A DNA stretch of 35,413 bases from NCBI GenBank assembly GCA_028875185.1, contig JAPPFH010000029.1, forward strand, positions 1 to 35,413, given 5' to 3'. Positions within the stretch are counted from its first letter, which is position 1. Every line of letters begins with the position of its first letter. Below, one piece after another: positions 378 through 34,615 of the stretch. The notes below the pieces were generated by a model. That model was given only the letters and a program-made list of their open reading frames with translations, ran no database searches and was not told the origin of the DNA. Both the position numbers and the translations under genes were made by a program. This DNA is from Chloroflexota bacterium. Its GTDB lineage: Bacteria > Chloroflexota > Anaerolineae > Aggregatilineales > Phototrophicaceae.

Positions 378-1745
378 ATGACAGAAAGAAATGACAAGCA
401 AATTAGCCGGCGAGACCTGCTGAAGATGCTGGGCAGCGGCGCGGCCGGGGCAACTATGGCCAAGATCGCCGGGCTCGGTGGCAGCGCCGCCGTATTGCTG
501 CGTGGCATGCCAGCCGGCGCGCAGGCGAAGGTCGAAATCTGGACCGGTTTCGGGCAAGGGCGTATGGCCGATGCCATGCAAGGCGCCATCGACAATTTCG
601 CCGTGGAGAATCCTGAATATGCCCCCGAGCACATCATCGTGCCTTGGGGCGAGATCCATGATCGTGTGATCGCCGCCACGTCGGCCGGTTCGCCGCCCGA
701 TGCCTACCGCGGCTGGGCTTGGATCGTCGGCGACGCCGCCATCGGCGCGCTGACCAACTTGCAGCCTTATGTCGACGCCGCGAATGTTGACTTGATGGAC
801 TTCTGGCCGGCGACGCTCAATCAAATGAAGTACCAGGGCGATGTCCACGCGATGAGCATTTCGACCATCGTGAACTTCATGTATTACAACAAGGATCGCA
901 TGAGAGAGGGCGGCTTGGATCCCGACAGCCCGCCGACGTCGATCGCCGATCTGGACGCGATGGGCTCCGAGCTCGATGATGTCGCCGACGATGGCGAGAT
1001 CCTGCGCCTTGGCTTTTCGCCGACGCTGCCGAACCCGCAAGTCTGGGATTGGGGCGCGGCTTTTGGCAGCCAGTACTGGGACGAGGCCGAGGGCAATATC
1101 GCGCTTGACGAAGAAGCCTGGATCGAATTGCTGAACTGGTACAAGAGTTATGGCGACAAGTTTGGCGCCGAAAACCTGGCCGCCTACCGCTCCACTTACG
1201 AAGGCAACGGCTTTGGCCGCAACTCGCCGCAAGGCATCTACTATACCGGTTTGATCAGCTTCTGGGTGATTGGTAGTTGGCTCTTCAATGACATGGGCGA
1301 ATACGGACCGGATGTCGATTTCGGCGTCGCGCCAATCCCGACCCTGGAGGGGGCCGAAGACGCCACGCCAGGCACATCCATCGGCAATATGTATTTCGTG
1401 CCCGCCAATTGCGCGAATCCGGACGGCGGCTTCGCCTTTGCCAACTATATGAGTTCGTCTCCCTTCGTGGCGATCAACAAGGCGCTGCCCGATAGCGTCA
1501 TGCCGTCGCGCCCGTCGTTGGCGACCCTGCCGGAAGTCGAAGACGCAGGCGCCTGGACTGTCTTGGCGCGTGACGAGATCCTGCCCAATACGCTGGAGAG
1601 ACCCAGCTTCCCCGGCAACGGTTTCCTGGGAAAGGCATTGAATGACGGGGTCGAAGGTGTCATATTCAAAGACGCTGACCCGGCGGAAGTGATCGCCGAT
1701 GCGGTCGAGCGTTCACGACGCGAGGTAGAGCGCATGCGGGGTTAG
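378..1745 (+). CDS. Tat-exported extracellular sugar-binding protein (family 1), importer 1
   Basis: Binding subunit of a carbohydrate ABC importer, 455 residues, the usual length for the family. The N-terminus has a twin-arginine signal: SRRDLL with Arg11-Arg12, a weakly hydrophobic Ala/Gly stretch, and an AQA cleavage site near residue 50. It therefore probably folds in the cytoplasm before export, unlike the two other binding proteins here. The mature part opens with KVEIWTGFGQG, the first strand of the periplasmic-binding fold. The start is fixed by AGGAG six bases upstream of the ATG. It is first in an operon with two permeases, a chaperonin-like gene and an oxygenase. The substrate cannot be read from sequence; the neighbourhood suggests a plant or algal glycan fragment. 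Family assignment is sure. Confidence 0.93.
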   Translation: MTERNDKQISRRDLLKMLGSGAAGATMAKIAGLGGSAAVLLRGMPAGAQAKVEIWTGFGQGRMADAMQGAIDNFAVENPEYAPEHIIVPWGEIHDRVIAATSAGSPPDAYRGWAWIVGDAAIGALTNLQPYVDAANVDLMDFWPATLNQMKYQGDVHAMSISTIVNFMYYNKDRMREGGLDPDSPPTSIADLDAMGSELDDVADDGEILRLGFSPTLPNPQVWDWGAAFGSQYWDEAEGNIALDEEAWIELLNWYKSYGDKFGAENLAAYRSTYEGNGFGRNSPQGIYYTGLISFWVIGSWLFNDMGEYGPDVDFGVAPIPTLEGAEDATPGTSIGNMYFVPANCANPDGGFAFANYMSSSPFVAINKALPDSVMPSRPSLATLPEVEDAGAWTVLARDEILPNTLERPSFPGNGFLGKALNDGVEGVIFKDADPAEVIADAVERSRREVERMRG

Positions 1746-1919: not shown

Positions 1920-2840
1920 ATGTTCAAACTGAAACGAGACCCCGCCGATCAACCGAATAGCTGGCGTACGGACAACCTCCCGGCCTGGGGTTTGTTCTTT
2001 GTCGCGCCCTGGATCATCGGCTTCGTCGCCTTTACCGTTTATCCCTTTTTCGCCTCTCTCTACTACAGCTTCACCAATTTCAACATCATCAATCTCACGC
2101 CGCGCTGGGTGGGCTTGGACAATTATGTCGAACTCTTCACGGCTGACCCGCTGTTTTGGATATCGATCAGCAACTCGATCCGATACGCCGCCCTGCTGCT
2201 TGTCTTCGCCACCATCTTTGACATCTTCATCGCCTATTTGCTGAGCCAGAATGTCAAGTACCTGTCGATCTATCGCACGATCTTCTTCTTCCCGGTGCTG
2301 GTGCCGGTGGTGGCCGCCAGCTTGACTTGGATCTGGATTCTGAATCCGCGCTACGGCTTGATGAATGGCTTGCTCGATCTGATCGGCATCAAGGGACCGA
2401 ACTGGCTGGCATCGCCGGACACAGCGATGTACTCGTTAATTTTCATCGGCGTCTGGGGCAGCGGACGCCAGGTCATCGTTTATCTATCCGGTTTCAACGA
2501 TATACCGCGGCAACTCTACGAGGCGGCTGATATCGACGGCGCGTCCGGCTTGCAGAAGTTCTGGCGGATTACGCTACCCTTGCTCTCGCCGCAAATCTTC
2601 TTCAATGTTGTCACGCTCATCATTTTCTCGCTGCAATCATTCTCCGAGGTCTACATCATGACGCAGGGCGGACCGGCAAATTCGACCCTGCTCTATGCCG
2701 TCAATCTGTATGAACGCGCCTTCCGCGATTACGCCATGGGTTATGCCTCGGCGCTGGCTTGGATCATGTTCCTTCTGATATTGGGTTTGACGCTGATCAT
2801 CTTCAAATTCTTGAGCGGGAAAGTTATTTATGAACGCTAG
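1920..2840 (+). CDS. Sugar ABC importer permease, MalF/UgpA type, importer 1
   Basis: Integral membrane permease of 306 residues with about six hydrophobic segments. The permease EAA loop, EAADIDGASG...LPLL (residues 201-222), docks onto the ATPase. The short N-terminus before the first helix (about residue 21) is typical of MalF/UgpA-type subunits without the long periplasmic insertion. It forms a heterodimer with the next gene. I see no good Shine-Dalgarno sequence before the ATG at 1920, and the 174-base gap to the binding protein carries three hairpins, so expression is likely lower than that of the binding protein. No ATP-binding subunit is encoded nearby. Confidence 0.93.
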   Translation: MFKLKRDPADQPNSWRTDNLPAWGLFFVAPWIIGFVAFTVYPFFASLYYSFTNFNIINLTPRWVGLDNYVELFTADPLFWISISNSIRYAALLLVFATIFDIFIAYLLSQNVKYLSIYRTIFFFPVLVPVVAASLTWIWILNPRYGLMNGLLDLIGIKGPNWLASPDTAMYSLIFIGVWGSGRQVIVYLSGFNDIPRQLYEAADIDGASGLQKFWRITLPLLSPQIFFNVVTLIIFSLQSFSEVYIMTQGGPANSTLLYAVNLYERAFRDYAMGYASALAWIMFLLILGLTLIIFKFLSGKVIYER

Positions 2841-2854
2841 GAAGAGACCGTAGC

Positions 2855-3745
2855 ATGGCAGTTTTGCAGCCGGCCGCACCCGGTCGCCGCGCCATGACCA
2901 GCGAAGAGCGCAATTACCTGCTGCTGCAGCGCGCGAGATCGGTCATCAAGCATGCCGTTCTGATCATCTTCGGCATCGCCTTCATGCTGCCCTTCGTCTG
3001 GATGATCAGCTCCTCCGTCAAGCCAAACATCGACATCTTTGAGATTCCCATCCGCTTGATACCGAAGTCACTCCGCCTCGAGAATTACGTCGACGCCACC
3101 AACGCCATCCCCTTCTGGCAATATTTGTGGAACTCCACCTATTACACCATCTTCGCCACCATCGGCGCGGTGCTGTCCAACACCTTCATCGCTTACGGCT
3201 TCGCGCGCGTGCGCTGGCGCGGGCGCAATGTGCTCTTCATTATCGTCATCGCCACCATGATGCTGCCCTTCCAGGTACGCATGATCCCGCTATACATTCT
3301 CTTCGCCAGGATCGGCTGGCTGAACTCCTTCCTGCCGCTAATCGTGCCGAACTTTTTCGGCAACGCCTTCTACATCTTCCTGATGCGCCAATTCATGATG
3401 ACCCTGCCAAAGGAGCTGGATGACGCCGCGCGCATCGACGGCGCCAGCGAATGGGGAATCTTCTGGCGGGTGGCGGTGCCGCTGTCCAAGCCAGCCATCC
3501 TGACCGTCGCCATCTTCGAAATTATCCACACCTGGCACGATTTCATCGGTCCTCTGGTTTATCTGCGGCATCCGACCAAGTACACGCTGTCGATTGGCTT
3601 GCGGCTTTATTTCACGCAATACGGCGCCGAATGGGGCTTGCTGATGGCGGCGGCCGCCATGTTTACGATACCGATGGTGATCTTCTTTTTCTTCGCCCAG
3701 CGCTCATTCATTGAAGGCATCACCTTGACCGGGCTAAAAGGCTAG
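2855..3745 (+). CDS. Sugar ABC importer permease, MalG/UgpE type, importer 1
   Basis: Second permease of importer 1, 296 residues. Hydrophobic segments begin near residue 33. The EAA loop is ELDDAARIDGAS (residues 187-198) followed by VPLSKP, and the C-terminal GITLTGLKG is typical of MalG-type subunits. It starts 14 bases after the upstream permease. Another ATG 13 codons downstream is possible but has no better ribosome site. It pairs with the MalF-type subunit to form the channel. The chaperonin-like gene begins four bases after its stop codon, so the two are almost certainly co-transcribed. Confidence 0.92.
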   Translation: MAVLQPAAPGRRAMTSEERNYLLLQRARSVIKHAVLIIFGIAFMLPFVWMISSSVKPNIDIFEIPIRLIPKSLRLENYVDATNAIPFWQYLWNSTYYTIFATIGAVLSNTFIAYGFARVRWRGRNVLFIIVIATMMLPFQVRMIPLYILFARIGWLNSFLPLIVPNFFGNAFYIFLMRQFMMTLPKELDDAARIDGASEWGIFWRVAVPLSKPAILTVAIFEIIHTWHDFIGPLVYLRHPTKYTLSIGLRLYFTQYGAEWGLLMAAAAMFTIPMVIFFFFAQRSFIEGITLTGLKG

Positions 3746-3749
3746 CCGC

Positions 3750-5408
3750 ATGACGCGCGTCCTCTCTCAGTTGCATACGCGAGAAGCGCTGAAAGCCGGC
3801 ATCGATACGTTGGCCGGCGCCGTCGTCCCGACGCTGGGACCCTTGACTGGTCCGGTCGCCATTGATGACAAGACGCGCGGCGGCTCTCCCGAGCTGCTGG
3901 ATGATGGCGGGGCAATCGCGCGGCGGATCCTGCAACTGGACAACCGCGATGCCGATGTCGGCGCGATGCTGCTGCGAGAGACGCTTTGGCGGCAGCGCCA
4001 GGCTTTCGGCGATGGCGCGGCGACGGCGGCGGCGCTCTATCATACGGTTTACGCTGACGGACATCGCTTCATTAGCGCCGGCGGAGACGCCATGCTGCTG
4101 CGTCAAGCCTTGGAAGCGGGACTGAAAATCATGCTCGACGAGCTGCGGCGGCAGACGCGTGACGTCTCGACCGTGGAAGAAATGCAGCGAGTCGCCCAGT
4201 CAATCTGCGGCGATCGCGATATCGCCGCGGCGCTGGCTGATATCTTTGATGTGCTGGGGCCACACGGCGCGATCGAAGTACAAGATGGCGGGCGCGATCT
4301 GGCGCGCGAATTCTTCCTCGGTTCGTATTGGGAGAGCAAAGTCCCATCGAATATCGTCTTCGATGGCGTCATCGGCGAGCGCATCGAACTGAAGAATACC
4401 GCTTGGCTGATCAGCGATTTCGAGCTGGACGATCTACAGGCGCTCGTCAAACTGGTGACCGCTGTCTACCAAGCGGGGTACAGCTCGCTGGCGATCGTAG
4501 CCAAGTCATTCTCTGAGCAAATCATCGCGGCTCAGGGCGCCAACAGCCGCATGGAAGACTTTCGGCTGGTCTATCTCGAGCCGACTGGGCTGGTTGATGA
4601 GCGTGAAGCGGCGCTGGAAGATCTGGCGCTGATCAGCGGCGGGCGCGTTTTGCGGACGGTCGGCGGTCACAGTTTTGCGGCGGTCACCCGCGAACATCTC
4701 GGCGCTTCCGAACTTGCTTGGGTTGATCGCAATCGCTTCGGCATCATCGCCGGTGGCGGCGGCAGCGAGACCGCGCTTCATAATGAGATAGAGGCTTTGA
4801 AAGCGCGTTACCGCCGGAGCGAGGACGAACGAGAGCAAGTTGTGCTGCGCGCGCGAATCGGGCGGCTGCGCGGCGGCAGCGCGGTCGTGTACGCGGGCGG
4901 CAGCAGCGAGAGCGAGATGCGCTATCAGACCGAGCGAATCACCCGAACGATCGCGGCGACGCGCGCTGCCCTGCTTGAGGGAACCTTGCCCGGCGGCGGA
5001 ACGGCGCTGCTGCGCTGCGGCGAGAGGCTTCGCGAGCGTTATGAGAATAGCGCCGATCCGCATGAGCGGGCAGCCTGGCAAATCCTGACGCGAGCAGCGG
5101 AAGCGCCCTGCCGCGCGCTGCTGAAGAACGCCGGGCATGAAGCGCCGGGAGTCGTTCTCGCCGAAATTCAGGCGGGCAAGAATGGCGCCGGATACGACCT
5201 GCGCGAGAGCCGCATCGTCGATATGCGGCGGGATGGCGTGGTCGATTCGGCGGCGGCGCTGATGGCAGCCGCGCGAAACGGGATCGGCGGAGCGGCGCTG
5301 GCGCTGACGGTCGAAAGAATCGTGCATCGCGTCAATCCGCCGCTGGCGATTGAACCGGGTGGGCTGCCTTCGTCTGCGCCTGAATCGGGAAATATCGAAC
5401 TCAAGTAG
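3750..5408 (+). CDS. Divergent GroEL-like chaperonin (Cpn60 family), probable ATPase-defective paralogue
   Basis: A 552-residue protein that aligns over its whole length with GroEL: equatorial, intermediate, apical, intermediate, equatorial. Recognisable blocks are TLGP (28-31), DDGG (51-54), GDGAATAA (87-94), the apical region (about 190-375), ATRAALLEG..PGGG (403-416) and GVVDSAAAL near the C-terminus. Asp52 and Asp88 (GroEL Asp52, Asp87) are kept. The GroEL TTT after GDG has become AAT, GroEL Lys34 has become Leu, and the residue aligned with catalytic Asp398 is Arg399. The GGM-rich tail is absent. It is therefore unlikely to be the housekeeping GroEL and may not hydrolyse ATP normally. 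It is the fourth gene of a sugar-import operon, four bases after the permease, without groES. A role in assembling importer or oxygenase components is inference only. Confidence 0.85.
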   Translation: MTRVLSQLHTREALKAGIDTLAGAVVPTLGPLTGPVAIDDKTRGGSPELLDDGGAIARRILQLDNRDADVGAMLLRETLWRQRQAFGDGAATAAALYHTVYADGHRFISAGGDAMLLRQALEAGLKIMLDELRRQTRDVSTVEEMQRVAQSICGDRDIAAALADIFDVLGPHGAIEVQDGGRDLAREFFLGSYWESKVPSNIVFDGVIGERIELKNTAWLISDFELDDLQALVKLVTAVYQAGYSSLAIVAKSFSEQIIAAQGANSRMEDFRLVYLEPTGLVDEREAALEDLALISGGRVLRTVGGHSFAAVTREHLGASELAWVDRNRFGIIAGGGGSETALHNEIEALKARYRRSEDEREQVVLRARIGRLRGGSAVVYAGGSSESEMRYQTERITRTIAATRAALLEGTLPGGGTALLRCGERLRERYENSADPHERAAWQILTRAAEAPCRALLKNAGHEAPGVVLAEIQAGKNGAGYDLRESRIVDMRRDGVVDSAAALMAAARNGIGGAALALTVERIVHRVNPPLAIEPGGLPSSAPESGNIELK

Positions 5409-5450
5409 ATCAAATTGGCGCTTGCCAATGTCATGAGGAGATACGCGGAA

Positions 5451-6278
5451 ATGGGCTGGGAACCAACGGCGGAACAAAAGCGAAACTATGAGGAGCGCGG
5501 TTACTTCACCGTGCCCAATGTGATCCCGCGGCAGACGGCGGCAGAAATGCTGGGCGTGATCAAGAATGCCATCCTGACGCCGGAGACCGACGACATCATG
5601 ACCGATGCCGACCCGATGGATCCGATGAATGATGATACGCCACAGGCGCGCGCCGTACGCTATCGCAAGCTGAGCCAGTTCAACCAGCGCAATCCGCTGA
5701 TTTGGCATAACGCGCACTGCGGCAAGCCGGTGCTCGAAATCGCGCGCTACTTCCTCGGCGATGACATTCTGCTCAAATACGACAGCTGCTTCCTAAAACC
5801 GGCGCGCTCCGGCAGCGCCACGCCTTGGCATCAAGACAACGGCTTATGGCTCGATGGCGACATCGAACCCTTCAACTTCTGGATGGCGCTCGACCCAGCC
5901 ACGATCGAAAACGGCTGCCTGCAAATGATCCCGGGCAGCTATCAGACTGAAATCGTCGAGCACGTCTTCTACGAAGACAGCATCCACCGGCAACTGCCCA
6001 ATGAGCGCGTCGAGGAGATGGTCGATACCTACGGCGTCGAGCATATCGAATTGGAGCCGGGCAGCGTCATCGTCTGGCATAGCAGCGCCTGGCATTACAG
6101 CCCGCCCAACACCAGCGACAAGGGGCGCATCGCCATCGCAGGCGTGATGAGCAGCCCGGCGATCGTGGAGAATGGCCGCAGCGGCCACAAAATCGATTAT
6201 AAGTGGCTGATGCGAGGCGGCGAGGTCGTCGCCGCGTTCCCCGCCGAGAGCTACGAGCGGCAAAACTTCAACGTTTGA
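5451..6278 (+). CDS. Phytanoyl-CoA dioxygenase (PhyH) family Fe(II)/2-oxoglutarate oxygenase
   Basis: A 275-residue non-heme iron, 2-oxoglutarate-dependent oxygenase of the double-stranded beta-helix fold. The metal triad is visible as His127-Gln-Asp129 (TPWHQDNGLW) and distal His215 in WHYSPPN. Arg226 after TSDKG is placed to bind 2-oxoglutarate. I chose the ATG at 5451 because AGGAG (5436-5440) lies ten bases upstream; a TTG start at 5415 in the same frame has no such site. It is the last gene of the importer 1 operon, 42 bases after the chaperonin-like gene. The substrate is unknown; hydroxylation of an imported compound or of a ligand-derived product is plausible. Its last 11 bases overlap the end of the convergent LacI gene. 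Confidence 0.9.
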   Translation: MGWEPTAEQKRNYEERGYFTVPNVIPRQTAAEMLGVIKNAILTPETDDIMTDADPMDPMNDDTPQARAVRYRKLSQFNQRNPLIWHNAHCGKPVLEIARYFLGDDILLKYDSCFLKPARSGSATPWHQDNGLWLDGDIEPFNFWMALDPATIENGCLQMIPGSYQTEIVEHVFYEDSIHRQLPNERVEEMVDTYGVEHIELEPGSVIVWHSSAWHYSPPNTSDKGRIAIAGVMSSPAIVENGRSGHKIDYKWLMRGGEVVAAFPAESYERQNFNV

Positions 6279-7320
6279 GGCATCGGCGGGGTGTCAGCGC
6301 GGCCGTCGTGTCGCGTTCAATTAGCCGCGATGGCGTGATGATTCGTTTCAGCGGCAGATCCGGTTCCGCGATGCGGCGCAGCATCAGTTGAGCGGCATTG
6401 AGGCCCAAGCCGCGCGGATCATTAGAAACGGTCGTCAAACTCGGGTGCCAGAGCGCTGCTTCCGGCACATCATCAAAACCGATGAGAGCCAAGTCTTTCC
6501 CCGCTTCCAAGCCGGCGGCGCGCAAGCCCAGCATCACCCCAAACGCGATCACATCGCTGTAACAATAAGCGGCGGTCGGCGGCGCTGGCATCCGCAGCAG
6601 CGCGCGCATCGCGTCATATCCACCGCGGCGGCTGACGGGACCGGCGATGCAAAGCGCCGGGTCAAGCGCGATATCGTGCCGCCGCAAGCTATGGCGATAA
6701 CTGCGCACGCGCCTTTGTCGGGTGAGATCAGTATCGAAGCCGCCAACGAAAGCGATACGCCGGTGTCCCTGCTGAATCAGATGCTCCAGCGCGCGCGCCG
6801 TGCCGTTCTCGTCATCCATGCCGACGCAATCGACGCCCAGCCCGGCGTGGTAGGGAGTTAGCAGCACGAGCGGGCAATAATCCGTCAGCCGCTGCAAGTC
6901 TGAGGTCGGCGTACTGGCGGTCGGCGCCAAGATCAAGCCATCAACATCGCGCTGCAGCATGGTCTGGATCATACGCGTCTGTTTGCCCAGATCGTCATCC
7001 GTCGTGGCCAGCACGAGGCTATAGTCATGATCCGCCAGTTGCGATTCGGCGCCCGAGGTGAGCTCGGCGTTAAAGGGATTCGACAAGTCCTTGATGATCA
7101 AGCCAATTGTATACGAGCGCTGGGTGCGCAGGCTGGCGGCGCGCTGGTTATAAACGTATCCCAGCGATTTGACCGCATTGAGCACGCGCTGCCGCGTCGG
7201 CGCGGAAATGCGCGTACTGTTGTTGAGCGCCAGGGAGGCGGTCGCCTTGGATACGTTCGCCGCGTCGGCAACGTGCTGCAAGGTGACCTTCTGGCGCCGC
7301 GGCCGATCGGATTTCGTCAT
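6268..7320 (-). CDS. LacI-family transcriptional regulator 1
   Basis: A 350-residue LacI/GalR regulator. The N-terminal helix-turn-helix and hinge are clear: VTLQHVADAANVSKATASLA, then RISAPTRQRVLNAVKSLGY and RAASLRTQRS. The sugar-binding core begins with TIGLIIKDLSNPFNAEL and continues with DGLILAPTAS and LALIGFDDVPEA. It follows the GH88 gene with a four-base ATGA overlap, so it is translationally coupled to it and likely senses a product of that enzyme or of its substrate. It presumably represses the importer 1 or GH88 promoter, both of which carry the AAACC|GATTT dyad. Effector unknown. Confidence 0.93.
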   Translation of the reverse strand: MTKSDRPRRQKVTLQHVADAANVSKATASLALNNSTRISAPTRQRVLNAVKSLGYVYNQRAASLRTQRSYTIGLIIKDLSNPFNAELTSGAESQLADHDYSLVLATTDDDLGKQTRMIQTMLQRDVDGLILAPTASTPTSDLQRLTDYCPLVLLTPYHAGLGVDCVGMDDENGTARALEHLIQQGHRRIAFVGGFDTDLTRQRRVRSYRHSLRRHDIALDPALCIAGPVSRRGGYDAMRALLRMPAPPTAAYCYSDVIAFGVMLGLRAAGLEAGKDLALIGFDDVPEAALWHPSLTTVSNDPRGLGLNAAQLMLRRIAEPDLPLKRIITPSRLIERDTTAALTPRRCLKR

Positions 7321-8423
7321 ATCAGCTTCAACAGCTTGGCGGCCGCTTCCAGAAAGAAGTAATCGCCAAACATGGTGCTTTCGTCGACGCCCAAGCCCAG
7401 ACGTTCATGGTAAGCCGCTTGTTTCAGCAGCCCTTCCCAGTCGATATCGTCACAGGCGAGGAAGGCTGGCTCGGACAAGCTCTCCATGATGCGCGCCGCG
7501 TATTCGCGATAGCTGCGCGCGCGCAAGGGATCGCCGACGAGCGCCGCCAGGTCTTGCAAGCCGCTTGCGGTAATGGCGGCGGCCGATGCTTCAAATGGTC
7601 GAGGCGGATTCGGCTCGAGCCAATCGTTGGGGCAGATGCCGTGCGCCGGCGTATTCAGGATGTAATAATCGGCGCAATGGCAGGCGGTCTGCAAGAAGCG
7701 CGGATCCCGCGTAAACGAGTAGGCGGTGGCGAAGCCGTAAATTGCCCAGGACAAGCCGCGCGCCCAGGAAGTATCACCGCGCCAGCCCTGATGTGTGCTC
7801 TCGCGCAGGAAGGCGCCCGTTTCCAGATCGAAGATGCCTTCGTGTACGGCGCTGCCATCGCCGCGCACCAGATAGCGCCGGCTGGTCAAGCAATTCCGCA
7901 GCGCCCTATCGTAAAGATCGGCGTCTCCCGTTTCGCGCGCCGCGTAGAAGATGATGCCGACATTCATCATGATATCAATGAAGGCGCTCTCCGGCGCGAC
8001 GAAAGACGCCAGGTAGCCGCCTTTCTCCTGGAAGCGCTCCCCCATTGTCCGCCCCGCTTTGATGACAACATCGCGCTGGCGGGGGGCGCCGTCGAGGTCG
8101 TGCCAGCGCTTCCAACTGTGCCAAAAGAGGAAGCCAAGGTCATGCGTTTCACGGTCGTCTTTGCGTTCTTCTATCAACTCGCAGTAGCGCTCCGCTTTGC
8201 CCCGCCAGAATTCATCGCCCGAATACAGATAGAGCAGCCACAACTGCCCGGGCAAGAAGCCTTGGCACCAGTTGGTCCAGGACGCGCCGTCGTGCTTCCA
8301 CTTGCCAGCGCGCGTGTATTGCGGCAGGTAATCCGGATGCGCGGCAACGAGGCGGCGCAACTTGTCGGCGGCGGCGGTGAAAACCCGCTCGCATTTGTCG
8401 GCAATTGGCTGATCTACGCTCAC
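7317..8423 (-). CDS. Glycoside hydrolase family 88, unsaturated glucuronyl hydrolase
   Basis: Cytoplasmic enzyme of 368 residues that removes 4,5-unsaturated uronic acid residues left by polysaccharide lyases. The (alpha/alpha)6-barrel family pattern is clear. The two essential aspartates of the family fit Asp95 in HDLGF and Asp150 in FIDIMMN; WARGLSWAIYGFA and NDWLEPNPPRPFEASAAAI are also characteristic. There is no signal peptide. I chose the GTG at 8423 because AAGGGAGG (8428-8435) precedes it. The longer frame from ATG 8465 would start inside the predicted -10 box and run through an operator-like site. It heads a two-gene operon with LacI regulator 1. No lyase is in the window, so the substrate must be made elsewhere or imported. 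Confidence 0.9.
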   Translation of the reverse strand: MSVDQPIADKCERVFTAAADKLRRLVAAHPDYLPQYTRAGKWKHDGASWTNWCQGFLPGQLWLLYLYSGDEFWRGKAERYCELIEERKDDRETHDLGFLFWHSWKRWHDLDGAPRQRDVVIKAGRTMGERFQEKGGYLASFVAPESAFIDIMMNVGIIFYAARETGDADLYDRALRNCLTSRRYLVRGDGSAVHEGIFDLETGAFLRESTHQGWRGDTSWARGLSWAIYGFATAYSFTRDPRFLQTACHCADYYILNTPAHGICPNDWLEPNPPRPFEASAAAITASGLQDLAALVGDPLRARSYREYAARIMESLSEPAFLACDDIDWEGLLKQAAYHERLGLGVDESTMFGDYFFLEAAAKLLKLI

Positions 8424-8436
8424 AGCGCCTCCCTTG

Positions 8437-8448
8437 TAAATCGGTTCA
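8437..8448 (-). promoter_or_regulatory. LacI-type operator candidate (site 2, GH88-LacI operon)
   Basis: On the minus strand this reads TGAACCGATTTA, matching the AAACC|GATTT dyad in eight of its ten core positions. It lies just before the ribosome site of the GH88 gene, about 10 to 20 bases downstream of the predicted transcription start. Autoregulation by LacI regulator 1 through this site is the simplest reading. Confidence 0.45.
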
Positions 8449-8463
8449 CTGGCAGTCGGCGCC

Positions 8464-8493
8464 ATGTTAGCACAGATGGCGCCCTTTCGTCAT
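8464..8493 (-). promoter_or_regulatory. Probable promoter of the GH88-LacI operon
   Basis: Reading the minus strand, ATGACG (8493-8488, 4 of 6) is followed by an 18-base spacer and TGCTAACAT, an extended -10 whose core TAACAT lies at 8469-8464. The in-frame ATG at 8465 overlaps this box and so would not be transcribed as a start codon. The match is moderate. Confidence 0.35.
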
Positions 8494-15216: not shown

Positions 15217-16671
15217 TCAAAGGCTCCGATTGCGAGTGATCTTGAAGGCGTAAACGTGATCGCATGGCTTTTGATCGGGTCGCTCGATCTTGAGGCCGGC
15301 GCGCGTCATCTCCCATTTGAGCTCTCCATCGACGCCAAGCAACTCCACCGAGCGCGTCTCGCCGGGATAAAGCGCGCTCGTCGACTCAATGACAAATTCT
15401 TTCTCTGGCCAGCCGAAAGTCATCGCGTAGAGGATGTTGTCGCGCACGGTGAAGCGGATGTCTCGCGCAGTGTATTCGAGCTTCTCTTTCGTATCGCTGA
15501 AAGCGCCGACATGCTTCATCCGCGTCGGTCCCTCGCCATAAGTATTCCAGGGCACAGTGTCGTAGATGGCCTCGCCATTGATCCGCAGCCATTCGCCAAT
15601 GCCTTCGAGGATCGCCTTGGATTCATCCGGGATCGCGCCATCCGGTTTCGGTCCAACATTGAGCAGCATGAAGCCATTCTTGCTGACATTGTCCGCCAAG
15701 TATTGCACCATCTCCGCCACCGATTTGTATTCGGTCTCCTTGATATAACCCCAGCCCTGCCCGTCATCGACGGTGGTATCGGTGATCCATTCGTAATGGG
15801 TGAGCTCAGCCGTTTTGCCCAGCTCGAAATCCAGCAGGGCGGCGCCGGGCGGTATATCGTGCCATTTGTACGTGGCGACTACTTCCCGCCCCCATTCGGC
15901 TTCTTTGTTGTAATAGTAGGCGAGGAAGTCTTGCTTGACTTGATCATGCACAAAGCGCAGGCCGAAATCGAACCAGATGTAATCCGGCTCATAGCGCTCG
16001 ACCACTTCGACCAGGCGATTGGTCCAGCGGCGGAGGAAGGCTTTGCTCGGCTTGTCCTGCGCCAGCCATTCGGCCTGATTGTGCCCCTGCCCATGGGCGT
16101 CAAACTCGAAATCGAGATTGTGCGGCTCGCCGTAGAGAGCGGCATAGCGCGGGTCGGCGGTGTCGTATTCGTCCCGCCAATGCGGGAAGAACCACCAGTT
16201 TTCGGCGTGGTGCATGGCGACCATGAAGCGCATGCCTTGGGCGCGGATCGCCTTTTCCAGCTCGCCGACGACATCGCGCTTGGGTCCCATTTTGCCAGCG
16301 CAAAATTCAGTATCGCTGGCATCCCACATCGGGAAGCCATCGTGATGCTCAGCCACTGGTCCGGCGAATTTGGCGCCCGCCCGCTTGAATAGCTCAGCCC
16401 ATTCATCGGGGTCGAAGTTCTCGGCGGTGAACATCGGGATGAAGTCTTTATAGCCGAATTTCGACGGGTGGCCATAGGTCGCGCAATGATACTCAAACTG
16501 CGGAGTGCCCTCGCGGTACATATTGTAAGGATACCAGGTGACGTTGGGTCCGGTAGCGGGCACACAGTAGATACCCCAATGCGTGTAGATGCCAAACTTG
16601 GCTTTGCGCATCCACTCGGCGATGGGATGGGTTTTCAGCGATGCCCAGGTTGGTTCGTACTGTTTGGTCAT
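15217..16671 (-). CDS. Glycoside hydrolase family 29, alpha-L-fucosidase
   Basis: A 484-residue retaining alpha-L-fucosidase. Typical family blocks are FGIYTHWGIY (26-35), AEHHDGF (107-113) and YIWFDFG, where Asp235 is the expected nucleophile. The sequence begins directly with the catalytic barrel and has no signal peptide, so it acts on imported oligosaccharides in the cytoplasm. A C-terminal beta-rich region follows (LYAMTFGWPEKEF). I chose ATG 16671 with GGAG eight bases upstream; a GTG three codons earlier overlaps that site. It precedes the lactonase and dehydrogenase genes on the same strand, 174 bases apart. The acid/base residue cannot be placed by eye. Confidence 0.93.
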   Translation of the reverse strand: MTKQYEPTWASLKTHPIAEWMRKAKFGIYTHWGIYCVPATGPNVTWYPYNMYREGTPQFEYHCATYGHPSKFGYKDFIPMFTAENFDPDEWAELFKRAGAKFAGPVAEHHDGFPMWDASDTEFCAGKMGPKRDVVGELEKAIRAQGMRFMVAMHHAENWWFFPHWRDEYDTADPRYAALYGEPHNLDFEFDAHGQGHNQAEWLAQDKPSKAFLRRWTNRLVEVVERYEPDYIWFDFGLRFVHDQVKQDFLAYYYNKEAEWGREVVATYKWHDIPPGAALLDFELGKTAELTHYEWITDTTVDDGQGWGYIKETEYKSVAEMVQYLADNVSKNGFMLLNVGPKPDGAIPDESKAILEGIGEWLRINGEAIYDTVPWNTYGEGPTRMKHVGAFSDTKEKLEYTARDIRFTVRDNILYAMTFGWPEKEFVIESTSALYPGETRSVELLGVDGELKWEMTRAGLKIERPDQKPCDHVYAFKITRNRSL

Positions 16672-16936
16672 GCGGTTCACTCCGATTTTAATCTAATCTG
16701 TTATTCTGTGAGCGGAGGCGAGCCGTCGCCGCGCCTAGACACTGCAAGCCGCTCGCCCGTACAAACTGGACACTATGCGGAAGACCTGACAGGTCGCTTA
16801 TACAACATTCGAGCCGGAAGATTCCTGTAGGGATCAGGTCGCGTAGAGCGCGCAGGGCGCGTAGACACCGCCCGTAGACACCGCTCGTCGACACAAACCT
16901 GCGCCGGTAGCTGAGCCGAAACTAGCGTAAGGACTT
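16672..16936. other. Intergenic region with degenerate repeats upstream of GH29
   Basis: There is no gene. Contents: a weak operator-like CTCCGATTTT (16680-16689) overlapping the GH29 ribosome site; a degenerate copy of the palindrome family, GACCTG-A-CAGGTC (16783-16795) followed by CGCTTATAC; and a short tandem of GTAGACACCGC-like units at about 16861-16892. No clear promoter for GH29 was found. Confidence 0.45.
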
Positions 16937-30628: not shown

Positions 30629-32254
30629 CTATCTTCGCGTCACTTTTAGCAATGAATTTGGACTTAAGTCTTCAACTTCGCTGTATTGACCATCATTCCA
30701 GGTGATCGCCAGCCGCTCAAGCGCGGCGCCGGATGGGAAGCCAAAGTGCGCCTGGCTGCTATCGCCCGAGAGATAACCGCTGACCGCCGCAATATCTCGC
30801 TGGTAGACACCAGCCTCGGTGTAAAGCGTCAGTCGCGCGCCGATGCCCTGTGCGTTTCCGACGCCCCGCTGGCGCAGGTCCACCGCGATGCTGTCGCCGC
30901 CGCAGAGTTGATTTTCAAACAGCGCCGCCCGGCTGCCCAGATTGTTGACGACGATATCCAGATCGCCATCGTTGTCGAGGTCGGCCATCGTCATGCCGCG
31001 TCCGCTGGCTTCGTCATTGAGCGCCCAGCCCGGCATCGGCTCGAATCCGGCGCCAGCCCGGTTTCGATACACCTGATTTTCTTCGACCAGTTCGTTATTC
31101 GGCAGATGCGGGAACAGCTCCAGCGATATCATGCCGTTGACGACGTAGAGATCTTGAAAGCCGTCGCTGTCCAGGTCACCAAACTTGGCTGACCAGCTCC
31201 AGCCGGTGCCATCGAGCCGCGCGGCGCGCGCGATATTCCGCAAGCGCCCGTCATCAGCGAAATCATATAGCACATTTTCCATGATCTGCGGGTCGCCCTC
31301 GACATGCGGCAGCGCCATCATCATCTCCATCACGGGCCGCCATTGCGCCATCATCGCTTCGTCATCGGCGTAGGGTTTCATATCGACGGCGAAGAGCTCC
31401 GGCGCGCCATCGTTGTCCAAGTCAGCAGCGTCGTAGCTCATGGTGCTGTGCGGCATGACAGCAAGCGGTTCAGTTTCATGCCAGGCGCCGTCGCGGAAAG
31501 TGAAATACTTGTCCTCGACCGCAAAGTCGTTGCCGATGATGATCTCGTGTTCGCCGGCGCGGTTGACGCCGGTCCAGATCGCAAGCGTATTGGAACGGTC
31601 AGCGATGCGCGTCGCGCGGAATCGGTCGCCCAGGTTTTCATAATAAATCACGCCAGATTTCGGCGCCGTCTGCCCCAGAATCTTCTCGTTTTCCACATCG
31701 TAGGAGCCGGTGAGCAAGTCGAGGTCGCCATCGCGATCGGCGTCCAACCAGTTCATCGCGTAGCCGATATAGATGGCGCCGTTAAGCACTTCGCGTTGGA
31801 AATCCCGACCGCCCTGATTCCGCCAAAACAAGGGCGCGCTCGCCTGCTGCGTGAAGACGATATCGAGGCGGCCGTCGCCGTCGACATCAATGATGGCCGC
31901 AGCGCGCGCGGGCGCCGCCGTCGGCAGCGCCTGACGCTCAAAGCGCAGCCCGCCGCGATTCCACAAAATAGCGTTATCGCCGCCGAGATTCGCCATGACG
32001 ATATCGAGCAAGCCGTCTTCGTCCAGATCGTTTACAGCGAGGCCCGCGCCGTTGCTGTCATAGAAGCCGACCGGCTGTTTAGTCGGCGTCGTCGTATGAT
32101 TTAGCTCGCGCGTAATGAAGAGGCCCCTGCAGTTGGCGCGCGGATTCAGGGGTGTCGCTTCTACCGTGACCGGCGCGTGGATGCGCAGAGCAAATGCCGC
32201 CGGCGAGACGAGGGACAGCACAAGCAGAAGAAGCGTGGCGCGGCGCAAGCGCAT
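30629..32254 (-). CDS. Secreted FG-GAP/VCBS repeat protein with C-terminal UnbV/ASPIC domain (CRTAC1-like)
   Basis: A 541-residue exported protein. The Sec signal is MRLRRATLLLLVLSLVSPAA with cleavage after AFA. At least six calcium-binding loops of the form DxDxDG are visible (DLDEDG, DVDGDG, DADRDG, DLDNDG, DLDSDG, DLDNDG), each followed by a hydrophobic strand such as LDIVMAN, consistent with a seven-blade beta-propeller. The C-terminal part, GIGARLTLYTEAGVYQRDIA followed by SQAHFGFPSG, is the UnbV/ASPIC domain. Such proteins work outside the cell in adhesion or recognition, but the actual role is unknown. It sits upstream of importer 3 on the same strand, with a separate importer promoter between them. 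Confidence 0.88.
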   Translation of the reverse strand: MRLRRATLLLLVLSLVSPAAFALRIHAPVTVEATPLNPRANCRGLFITRELNHTTTPTKQPVGFYDSNGAGLAVNDLDEDGLLDIVMANLGGDNAILWNRGGLRFERQALPTAAPARAAAIIDVDGDGRLDIVFTQQASAPLFWRNQGGRDFQREVLNGAIYIGYAMNWLDADRDGDLDLLTGSYDVENEKILGQTAPKSGVIYYENLGDRFRATRIADRSNTLAIWTGVNRAGEHEIIIGNDFAVEDKYFTFRDGAWHETEPLAVMPHSTMSYDAADLDNDGAPELFAVDMKPYADDEAMMAQWRPVMEMMMALPHVEGDPQIMENVLYDFADDGRLRNIARAARLDGTGWSWSAKFGDLDSDGFQDLYVVNGMISLELFPHLPNNELVEENQVYRNRAGAGFEPMPGWALNDEASGRGMTMADLDNDGDLDIVVNNLGSRAALFENQLCGGDSIAVDLRQRGVGNAQGIGARLTLYTEAGVYQRDIAAVSGYLSGDSSQAHFGFPSGAALERLAITWNDGQYSEVEDLSPNSLLKVTRR

Positions 32255-32908: not shown

Positions 32909-34615
32909 CTACGATTCCGCTTCAGCCTCCGGCTCGGGCGGATTCTCCAGGTCAGCCAGCGTGGGCATATTCGCCTTCTTGCCGTGGACGCCAGTGGCGC
33001 CATCGGGGCGGGTGCCGCGGCTATCCAGGCTTTGCATATTGCCGTCGGCATCGTATGTCCGCACTTCGAAGCGATATTCACCCTCTTGGAAGCGCCAGTC
33101 ATAACGCCAGATGGCCCAGGTCAATTCGGATAGCGGCTGCCGTAATTGCGCCTCTTCCCAATCCCCGCCGTTGACGCTGATTTCGACCTTGGAGATCATC
33201 TTGGCGCCGGCGTAAGCAATGCCGCCTACGGGAACGACATAACCGCCGTTGTCCTTGAGGATCGAATCGGTGGACACCGCATCGACAACCGAGGTGGTAT
33301 TGACGATCGCTTCTTTGCTCCAGCCGCGCCGCACCCAATAACCCTCAGCCCAGGCGTCGACAAATTCGATGCTCTTGATCCATTTCGGTTGTTTCATGCC
33401 GTAGCGGTCGGGGATGTAGATGCGCAAGGGGAAACCGTGCTTCTGCTTTAGCGGCTGATCATCCCATTCATAGGCAAACATAACGCGCTCTTCCGCTTCG
33501 ACAACATCAAGCATGACATACTCGTCAAAGTTGTCGGCGCCGGTGATCTTCATCGCCACTGCGTCAGCCTGTGGCTTGACGAACTCGAGGAAGTCGCTCA
33601 TGCGGAAGCCGGACCATTTCGTCGTGCTGATCAGCGTGCCGCCGATGCGATTGCTGATGCAAGACAGCGTGATGAAGCGATCGATGCGGTCAAACTTGTC
33701 GTATAGATCTTCCAGCGAAAGGCTGACCGGATTATCGACCAAGCCAGTAACCTCAAGCCGCCATTCCTCCGCGTCAATGACCGGCGGGCGCGAGCTGATG
33801 TCGATGCGATAGTGGTCATCCAGCGGCGTATACTCGGGGCGGGTGCCGGGCGCCGATTCCAGCGTGTCCGCCGCATTCGGCAAGACATTGCCCGCGCCAT
33901 CGGTGGCGGCGCCGGCCGGAATTTCGGAGACGACCCCGCCCTCGCCCGGCCGCCCGCCGACGAGCGCGCCCAAGCCAGCGCCGATGACCGTAAGCACGGC
34001 GCTGGCGCCACCGACGCGCACCATGAATTGACGCCGATTGAGCGGTTCGACCGTGACGGTCTCGCCCGTTTCTTCGTCCGTCTTCGTCTTGCCTTCGCTA
34101 TGCGCCAGATCGTTGTAAATCCAATTGGCTGCCATCCCCCAAAGCGCGAATGTCAGCACAACCCAGATGATTTGCGCTGGAACCGGGGCGGTCGCCGTCA
34201 GGTTCACTTGCGAAGAAATCAGCATCATCACCGCGCCGAAAGCCAAGCCCAGAATCAGCCCGGGGACCAAATTGCGCGCGCGCGTCTTGCTGCGATTCAT
34301 CAGCCCGTAAACGATGGCTATGGCGACCGCGCCCAAAGCGAGGAAGCCAGCCAAGCCCATCAACTGCTCGGCAGTCTTGGCCGCGGCCGAGGTCTCGCCC
34401 ATGTTGAAGGCGATGATCATCTCCACCATCATATCGATGCCGAAGGTCAGCAGCGCGCCAGGCAGGAGCCGCGAAACGTAGTCAAAGACATCGAAAGGAA
34501 TGAATGGCAAGCCCGCGACTTGGTCAGCCAGGAAGAGCAGCGCCGTCAGCGTCATGGTCAGCAATCCGCCGACCAGCGCGCCGAGCAACAGTGAAGGTTT
34601 CCGTAGGTTTTCCAT
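32909..34615 (-). CDS. Membrane-attached molybdopterin-dependent oxidoreductase (sulfite oxidase/MsrP-like fold)
   Basis: A 568-residue protein with three parts. The first (about 1-167) has five predicted membrane helices. Next comes a linker with PLNRRQFMVRVGG (Arg194-Arg195) and a sixth hydrophobic stretch to about 221, resembling an internal Tat signal. The last, from about 268 on, is an oxidoreductase molybdopterin-binding domain: DAEEWRLEVTGLVDNPVSLS, then ITLSCISNRIGG, where Cys319 should ligate molybdenum, then KWSGFRM, HGFPLRIYIPDRYGMKQPKW and a C-terminal Mo-Co dimerisation-like beta domain. The enzyme domain is thus probably translocated folded with cofactor and tethered outside the membrane. 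The substrate is unknown. A TATAAT promoter lies upstream. Confidence 0.88.
   Translation of the reverse strand: MENLRKPSLLLGALVGGLLTMTLTALLFLADQVAGLPFIPFDVFDYVSRLLPGALLTFGIDMMVEMIIAFNMGETSAAAKTAEQLMGLAGFLALGAVAIAIVYGLMNRSKTRARNLVPGLILGLAFGAVMMLISSQVNLTATAPVPAQIIWVVLTFALWGMAANWIYNDLAHSEGKTKTDEETGETVTVEPLNRRQFMVRVGGASAVLTVIGAGLGALVGGRPGEGGVVSEIPAGAATDGAGNVLPNAADTLESAPGTRPEYTPLDDHYRIDISSRPPVIDAEEWRLEVTGLVDNPVSLSLEDLYDKFDRIDRFITLSCISNRIGGTLISTTKWSGFRMSDFLEFVKPQADAVAMKITGADNFDEYVMLDVVEAEERVMFAYEWDDQPLKQKHGFPLRIYIPDRYGMKQPKWIKSIEFVDAWAEGYWVRRGWSKEAIVNTTSVVDAVSTDSILKDNGGYVVPVGGIAYAGAKMISKVEISVNGGDWEEAQLRQPLSELTWAIWRYDWRFQEGEYRFEVRTYDADGNMQSLDSRGTRPDGATGVHGKKANMPTLADLENPPEPEAEAES

Follow-up and report, generated by a model that had tools for sequence, protein, structure and literature searches.

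A family of divergent GroEL-like chaperonins lacking the catalytic aspartate, linked to sugar-import operons in Chloroflexota

Results

A divergent chaperonin gene inside a sugar-import operon

The window, by which we mean the whole 35,413-nucleotide stretch analysed here (contig JAPPFH010000029.1 of a Chloroflexota bacterium), contains an uninterrupted, full-length open reading frame for a 552-residue GroEL homologue, P0001 (Table 1). It starts four nucleotides after the stop codon of a permease gene and is followed by an oxygenase gene, an arrangement that a first-pass annotation had described from the sequence alone and that the reading frame, the alignment to GroEL and the PF05721 match bear out. 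The genes ahead of it, an SBP_bac_1 protein and two BPD_transp_1 permeases, make up a CUT1-type sugar ABC importer; there is no adjacent GroES gene. The LacI-type gene is likely that of a local regulator, and the GH88-like hydrolase adjoins it in only part of the window's clade (clade A, see below). The alpha-L-fucosidase, FG-GAP/ASPIC and molybdopterin oxidoreductase genes, also encoded in the window, fit a polysaccharide-degrading lifestyle.

Table 1 Features of the window, with codons of P0001 (E. coli GroEL positions in brackets)
Feature	Position	Strand	Basis
ABC-importer sugar-binding protein with Tat signal (SRRDLLKMLGSGAAG); proposed candidate client of the window Cpn60	378..1745	+	SBP_bac_1 75.3 bits; Tat motif
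Importer permease 1, MalF/UgpA-like	1920..2840	+	PF00528; best NCBIfam UgpA/GlcT, under cut-offs
Importer permease 2, MalG/UgpE-like	2855..3745	+	family search; stop 4 nt ahead of Cpn60 start
Divergent GroEL/Cpn60 paralogue, clade A (P0001)	3750..5408	+	PF00118 89.4 bits (cut-off 34.3); TIGR02348 272 bits (cut-off 582)
P0001 codon D51 (K51)	3900-3902	+	
P0001 codon D52	3903-3905	+	
P0001 codon D88 (D87)	4011-4013	+	
P0001 codon Arg399 (D398)	4944-4946	+	
PhyH-type oxygenase, final gene of this strand run	5415..6278	+	PF05721
LacI-type regulator, convergent	6268..7320	-	family match
GH88-like unsaturated-uronyl hydrolase	7317..8465	-	family match
Alpha-L-fucosidase	15217-16680		
FG-GAP/ASPIC protein	30629-32254		
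Molybdopterin oxidoreductase	32909-34615		

P0001 retains the GroEL fold in prediction and has lost conserved residues

P0001 belongs to the Cpn60/TCP-1 superfamily (PF00118, matched in two stretches), and its PDB matches are GroELs over residues 9–526. It is 26% identical to E. coli GroEL and 27% identical to the GroEL of its own genome, and its score of 272.2 bits against the GroEL equivalog model TIGR02348 lies under the cut-off of 582.1. Like P0001, chlamydial GroEL2 and GroEL3 are divergent variants beside a normal GroEL, but P0001 falls far under the cut-offs of the NCBIfam exception models for these two (84.6 and 78.2 bits, where 600 is required). The AlphaFold2 (AF2) model of P0001 (mean pLDDT 87.5, pTM 0.84, from an input alignment of 44 sequences) has the equatorial–intermediate–apical GroEL fold, and Foldseek places it nearest GroES-bound GroEL (5opx, TM-score 0.82; 4v4o_C, 0.81), with 0.62 for apo GroEL (1oel); we draw no meaning from the better fit to the GroES-bound form.

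Aligned with E. coli GroEL, P0001 keeps D52, D87 (D88 in P0001), T91 (T92), G414–416 (G415–417) and D495 (D499), together with the nucleotide motifs TLGP, GDG and GGG. Several other positions have changed: K34 is L32, K51 is D51, T89 and T90 are A90 and A91, N479 is D483 and D398 is R399. The annotation's reading of Asp52, Asp88, Arg399, the Leu at Lys34 and the AAT after GDG agrees with this alignment, which has no gaps in the region of position 398 and places no Asp there, whereas an Asp at that site had been named beforehand as speaking against the claim; a misalignment was also dismissed because the region forms a helix (387–410) in the AF2 model. The GGM tail, reported as missing, is indeed absent from the last 30 residues. 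E461 is Ala, the inter-ring position R452 is Arg in 110 of the 117 members of the family described below, and positions that contact GroES are altered, for example Y203 and V263/V264.

One of four divergent copies, and of a large family

The window genome has a canonical groES–groEL pair (contig C103), which the annotation had proposed to look for, and four divergent Cpn60s: A (in the window), B (C112), C (C70) and D (C108). Cpn60 A and D lie directly behind a binding protein–permease–permease run, while C and an operon of this kind are divergently transcribed. Cpn60 B lies 1.7 kb from the start of its contig, and its orthologues in relatives sit behind an importer operon. No second GroES was found in the window genome, and its lone GroES adjoins the canonical GroEL. 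The annotation's view of a single-operon oddity was thus too narrow.

The 163 sequences aligned (164 before context clustering, which left out one short Cpn60) comprise 117 family members, 25 intermediates and 21 canonical GroELs. The boundary between family and intermediates is a profile score of 600 bits, not a node of the tree, which mixes the two at the edge, and the scores of the profile (A2) favour the family, whose own sequences went into building it. In a quick IQ-TREE analysis of 70 representatives, 67 non-canonical rows split from three canonical rows with an SH-aLRT of 100. The divergent Cpn60s thus form a distinct GroEL-derived family, most of whose members come from the Chloroflexota class to which the window belongs: matches of at least 554 bits occur in 30 of 298 sampled genomes of the class (126 pass E 1e-120, a count that includes canonical GroELs), and in a sample of the phylum the threshold E 1e-160 is passed by three of 400, of which one lies outside the class. 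The named family records are Chloroflexota metagenome-assembled genomes (MAGs), many labelled Anaerolineae. A MAG labelled Trueperaceae (L160:4527-6980) carries a complete binding protein–permease–permease–Cpn60–propeller run, and one family record is labelled Bacteroidetes (L131); either transfer or misbinning would account for these two.

The active site across the family

Asp is found at position 398 in 20 of the 21 canonical sequences (the other has Ala). The 25 intermediates have Arg (13), Glu (6), Lys (3), Gln (2) or His (1), and the 117 family members Arg (79), Ala (13), Glu (11), Lys (5), His (3), Tyr (2), and Asp, Ser, Thr and Gln once each. The sole Asp398 of the family belongs to a clade D protein (C108; L009:15457-17226), which has Lys at position 52 and whose sisters have Glu398. 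D87, D495, G414 and G416 are invariant (117/117), and so is an Asp at position 51, which is His in 20 of 21 canonical sequences and Lys in E. coli. Position 52 is more variable: Asp in 61, Asn in 21, Ser in 20, Lys in 13, and Thr and Ala once each. GGM endings, sought in the last 30 residues, occur in 12 of 21 canonical sequences, in none of the 25 intermediates and in none of the 117 family members.

Positions 52 and 398, which we take to face each other at the gamma-phosphate in GroEL, have undergone a charge swap. Their charges are opposite in 88 of 142 non-canonical sequences, 76 with a negative residue at 52 and a positive one at 398 and 12 the other way round, the latter almost confined to clade D, so that independent swaps are few. 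Both are negative in six, both positive in none, and the rest have a neutral residue. Because clade D pairs Asp or Glu at 398 with Lys at 52, catalysis may persist there. Basal rows combine Glu398 with Asp52, which suggests that position 398 may have changed from Asp to Glu to Arg.

With Asp398 replaced, mostly by Arg, a nucleotide, if bound at all, should be hydrolysed very slowly, and since T89/T90 and K51 of the pocket have changed too, even ATP binding can only be presumed. E. coli GroEL D398A is reported to bind ATP as usual, to retain 3% of the steady-state ATPase and to go on encapsulating and folding proteins (PMC3326522). The predicted effect of losing Asp398 is therefore a very slow timer rather than necessarily a holdase, and the non-cycling or slow holdase that the annotation had proposed does not follow from this loss alone.

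Conservation of the window clade

An orthologue of P0001 is present in 21 of 25 genomes of the same genus, the window genome included, with intact frames at 65–82% identity. Purifying selection is apparent from a median pairwise dN/dS of 0.20 (190 pairs among 20 orthologues), and all 20 aligned orthologues begin 3–4 nucleotides after the permease stop, an inner ATG having been picked by hand for three of them. The gene order that the annotation had proposed to seek in relatives is present in all 21 loci examined: a PhyH oxygenase lies behind the Cpn60 in 21 of 21 and a permease ahead of it in 20, the remaining contig ending 181 nucleotides upstream with the permease tail visible. Outside the window's clade PhyH does not adjoin the Cpn60, and the oxygenase was dropped as a general client.

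Linkage to importers and to Tat-exported binding proteins

Across the family, upstream sequence of at least 1.5 kb is available for 92 members. An importer adjoins the Cpn60 gene in 70 of these and not in the other 22; when members are clustered at 70% identity, 23 of 39 have one alongside. The corresponding counts are three of 21 for intermediates and none of 19 for canonical GroELs. The binding proteins of the linked importers almost invariably carry a Tat motif: under a single rule applied to both sets, 63 of 64 untruncated linked binding proteins have it (five others, cut by contig ends, were dropped), as against 16 of 117 unlinked ones. The lone exception reads SRHEFL, a near miss. In the window genome, three of the four divergent copies adjoin importers of this Tat type.

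The unlinked set was drawn from three genomes and the linked set covers more. All 68 unlinked proteins of the window genome were scored (11 with Tat), one of them, C33:9333-10169, as lacking Tat because its N-terminus could not be read in frame; G027 contributed 30 of its 39 as listed, one of which is linked (3 of 29 with Tat), and G248 20 of 21, one row that repeated a reading frame being omitted (2 of 20). At 40% identity the linked proteins fall into eight groups, and by group the association with Tat has a Fisher p of 6e-7 if all eight are counted as Tat, or 3e-4 if six are, against 16 of 117; as the operons share descent, the Tat counts are not independent, and even these p values are optimistic. 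Tat substrates must be folded in the cytosol before export, a plain reason for a folding helper in the operon. The annotation had tied the protein to the importer, its binding protein or the oxygenase; the tie to the importer holds and the Tat bias points to the binding protein, but the oxygenase is a feature of the window's clade alone. The window genome (G000) has an unusually large number of sugar-type importers, with 71 SBP_bac_1 matches in 4.37 Mb, and the majority of its binding proteins look Sec-exported.

A predicted seven-bladed propeller as a possible second partner

Directly downstream of the Cpn60 gene, a propeller gene is found in 67 of 110 family members (30 of 46 at 70% identity) and 12 of 24 intermediates, and in none of 20 canonical loci; at three loci that escaped the rule (L060, L061 and L062) a propeller gene lies close by but overlaps or runs on the opposite strand. 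It encodes a BNR/Asp-box protein (Pfam Sortilin-Vps10, BNR and PSII_BNR). Its AF2 model (mean pLDDT 93.8) shows seven strand repeats by visual reading, with YCF48 (an assembly factor), WD40 and GH74 propellers as fold neighbours. The aligned rows that were read show no evident signal peptide, and the protein is predicted to be cytosolic. In propellers such as L008:3316-4254 and L007:10761-11621 the motif AWNFGLxD is strongly conserved, and in this data set these genes nearly always lie beside divergent Cpn60s.

Among the 86 family members with both flanks present, 28 have the importer only, 15 the propeller only, 37 both and six neither; for the 20 such intermediates the counts are three, ten, none and seven. 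At least three of the loci with neither have a nearby propeller that the rule missed. As intermediates adjoin an importer in three of 21 cases and a propeller in 12 of 24, the importer does not appear to be the founding partner, and the propeller, which lay beyond what the annotation could see, seems to be the older partner of the divergent Cpn60s.

The main rival to the reading favoured below, possible if rather unlikely, makes the propeller the dedicated client or partner and the importer link secondary. The Cpn60 would then fold the propeller or, instead of GroES, employ the propeller as its lid or adaptor. The downstream position in family and intermediates, the occurrence without an importer, the confidently modelled fold, the apparent lack of a signal peptide and the kinship in fold to an assembly factor and to WD40 propellers all argue for such a role, and the eukaryotic chaperonin CCT folds WD40 propellers. 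However, in clades A and D no propeller adjoins the Cpn60, yet the clade A protein is under purifying selection, and the Tat association would be left unexplained.

PADLOC returned no family for P0001, the clade B Cpn60 or the clade B propeller, and identity as a defence system was dropped.

Discussion

The reading that we favour, at a probability of roughly 0.45, is that the window Cpn60 is a chaperonin with hardly any ATP hydrolysis, dedicated to folding the Tat-exported sugar-binding protein of its own operon before export. The family keeps the GroEL fold, as predicted, and most nucleotide-contact motifs, its catalytic Asp398 being replaced, mostly by Arg, and each copy would be devoted to one operon. 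The window protein would bind the co-encoded sugar-binding protein in the cytosol and fold it there; that protein, which presumably exits via Tat, would need to be folded beforehand, and the interaction may be ended by hand-over to Tat rather than by fast ATP cycling with GroES. We infer the loss of ATPase activity, the formation of rings, the client and the release step. The presence of multiple operon-placed copies suggests folding machines that each serve one job and not the whole cell. Folding of the binding protein and a role for the propeller can be reconciled if some branches use the propeller as an adaptor. A fuller and distinctly more speculative scheme, which we consider unlikely, would have operon-dedicated, near-non-hydrolysing chaperonins throughout, with the catalytic dyad turned into a salt bridge (D52–R398 or K52–E398), chambers for one client coupled to Tat and, where present, a single-chain seven-bladed propeller that stands in for GroES by capping the seven-fold ring or seeding it.

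Alternatively, the Cpn60 could work at the membrane as a holdase or scaffold, serving the permeases or the entire importer, and not as a folding chamber. A permease immediately precedes it in the window's clade and several others, and a static scaffold would suit slow hydrolysis. Against this, clade C is transcribed divergently from its importer, the Tat bias is on the binding protein and not on the permeases, and E. coli GroEL D398A still folds proteins (PMC3326522); we regard such a scaffold as quite improbable. The protein might also be an additional, broad-range chaperonin whose place in catabolic operons serves regulation alone, so that it is made when sugar is present, and duplicate groELs with divergent roles do occur in about 30% of bacterial genomes (PMC3578752, PMC11978752). 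This is very doubtful, because genomes hold up to four divergent copies, each operon type is kept across species, and a general folding machine would not be expected to lose its catalytic Asp. Lastly, despite the loss of conserved residues, the odds that P0001 is a gene duplicate in decay are minimal, and chance and a pseudogene were set aside, given orthologues in 21 of 25 genomes, their intact frames at 65–82% identity, a dN/dS of 0.20, constant spacing and motifs invariant over 117 members.

Membership of the Cpn60 superfamily and the existence of extra groELs are known; what appears to be new is a family that fails several tests of a functional GroEL. With canonical GroEL (TIGR02348), which works with GroES, P0001 shares the predicted whole-length fold, a colinear sequence, the TLGP, GDG and GGG motifs, D87 and D495. 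It differs in its 26% identity to the E. coli protein, a score below the cut-off, the loss of D398, Asp in place of Lys or His at 51, Ala at T90, the lack of a GGM tail and of a GroES neighbour, and its operon-specific placement. Myxococcus GroEL1/2, actinobacterial Cpn60.1 and the seven copies of Bradyrhizobium resemble the family in being extras beside one normal GroEL and in their atypical C-terminus; the comparison is by description, and the available parts of these accounts mention neither loss of Asp398 nor a sugar-importer operon (PMC11978752, PMC3578752). Among the titles and abstract openings listed from open-licence full-text literature, none describes a GroEL family without Asp398, a chaperonin within a sugar-import operon or a chaperonin–propeller pairing.

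Two known systems bear on the propeller. CCT/TRiC is likewise a chaperonin paired with WD40 propeller clients, but it is a eukaryotic Group II chaperonin without an operon link. The assembly factor YCF48/HCF136 has a fold like that of the neighbouring propeller (PSII_BNR), at 17% identity in the structural match, whereas the propeller here is not in a photosynthetic context.

In textbooks, GroEL is the general-purpose folding machine, powered by ATP hydrolysis. If the favoured reading is true, chaperonins are seen here evolving into single-client helpers, copy by copy in import operons, and the family would serve as a natural experiment to learn why chaperonins hydrolyse ATP. Theirs could be the first operon link between a chaperonin and the Tat pathway, which bears on how Tat substrates fold before export. 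The E. coli D398A laboratory mutant has lost the same catalytic position, whereas the natural family mostly has Arg there, and positions 51 and 52 have changed in a coupled way. Outside the family, a canonical-type GroEL with Ala398 and no GroES neighbour (L236:2983-4638, on G037:C44) is another, separate case in which the catalytic Asp was lost.
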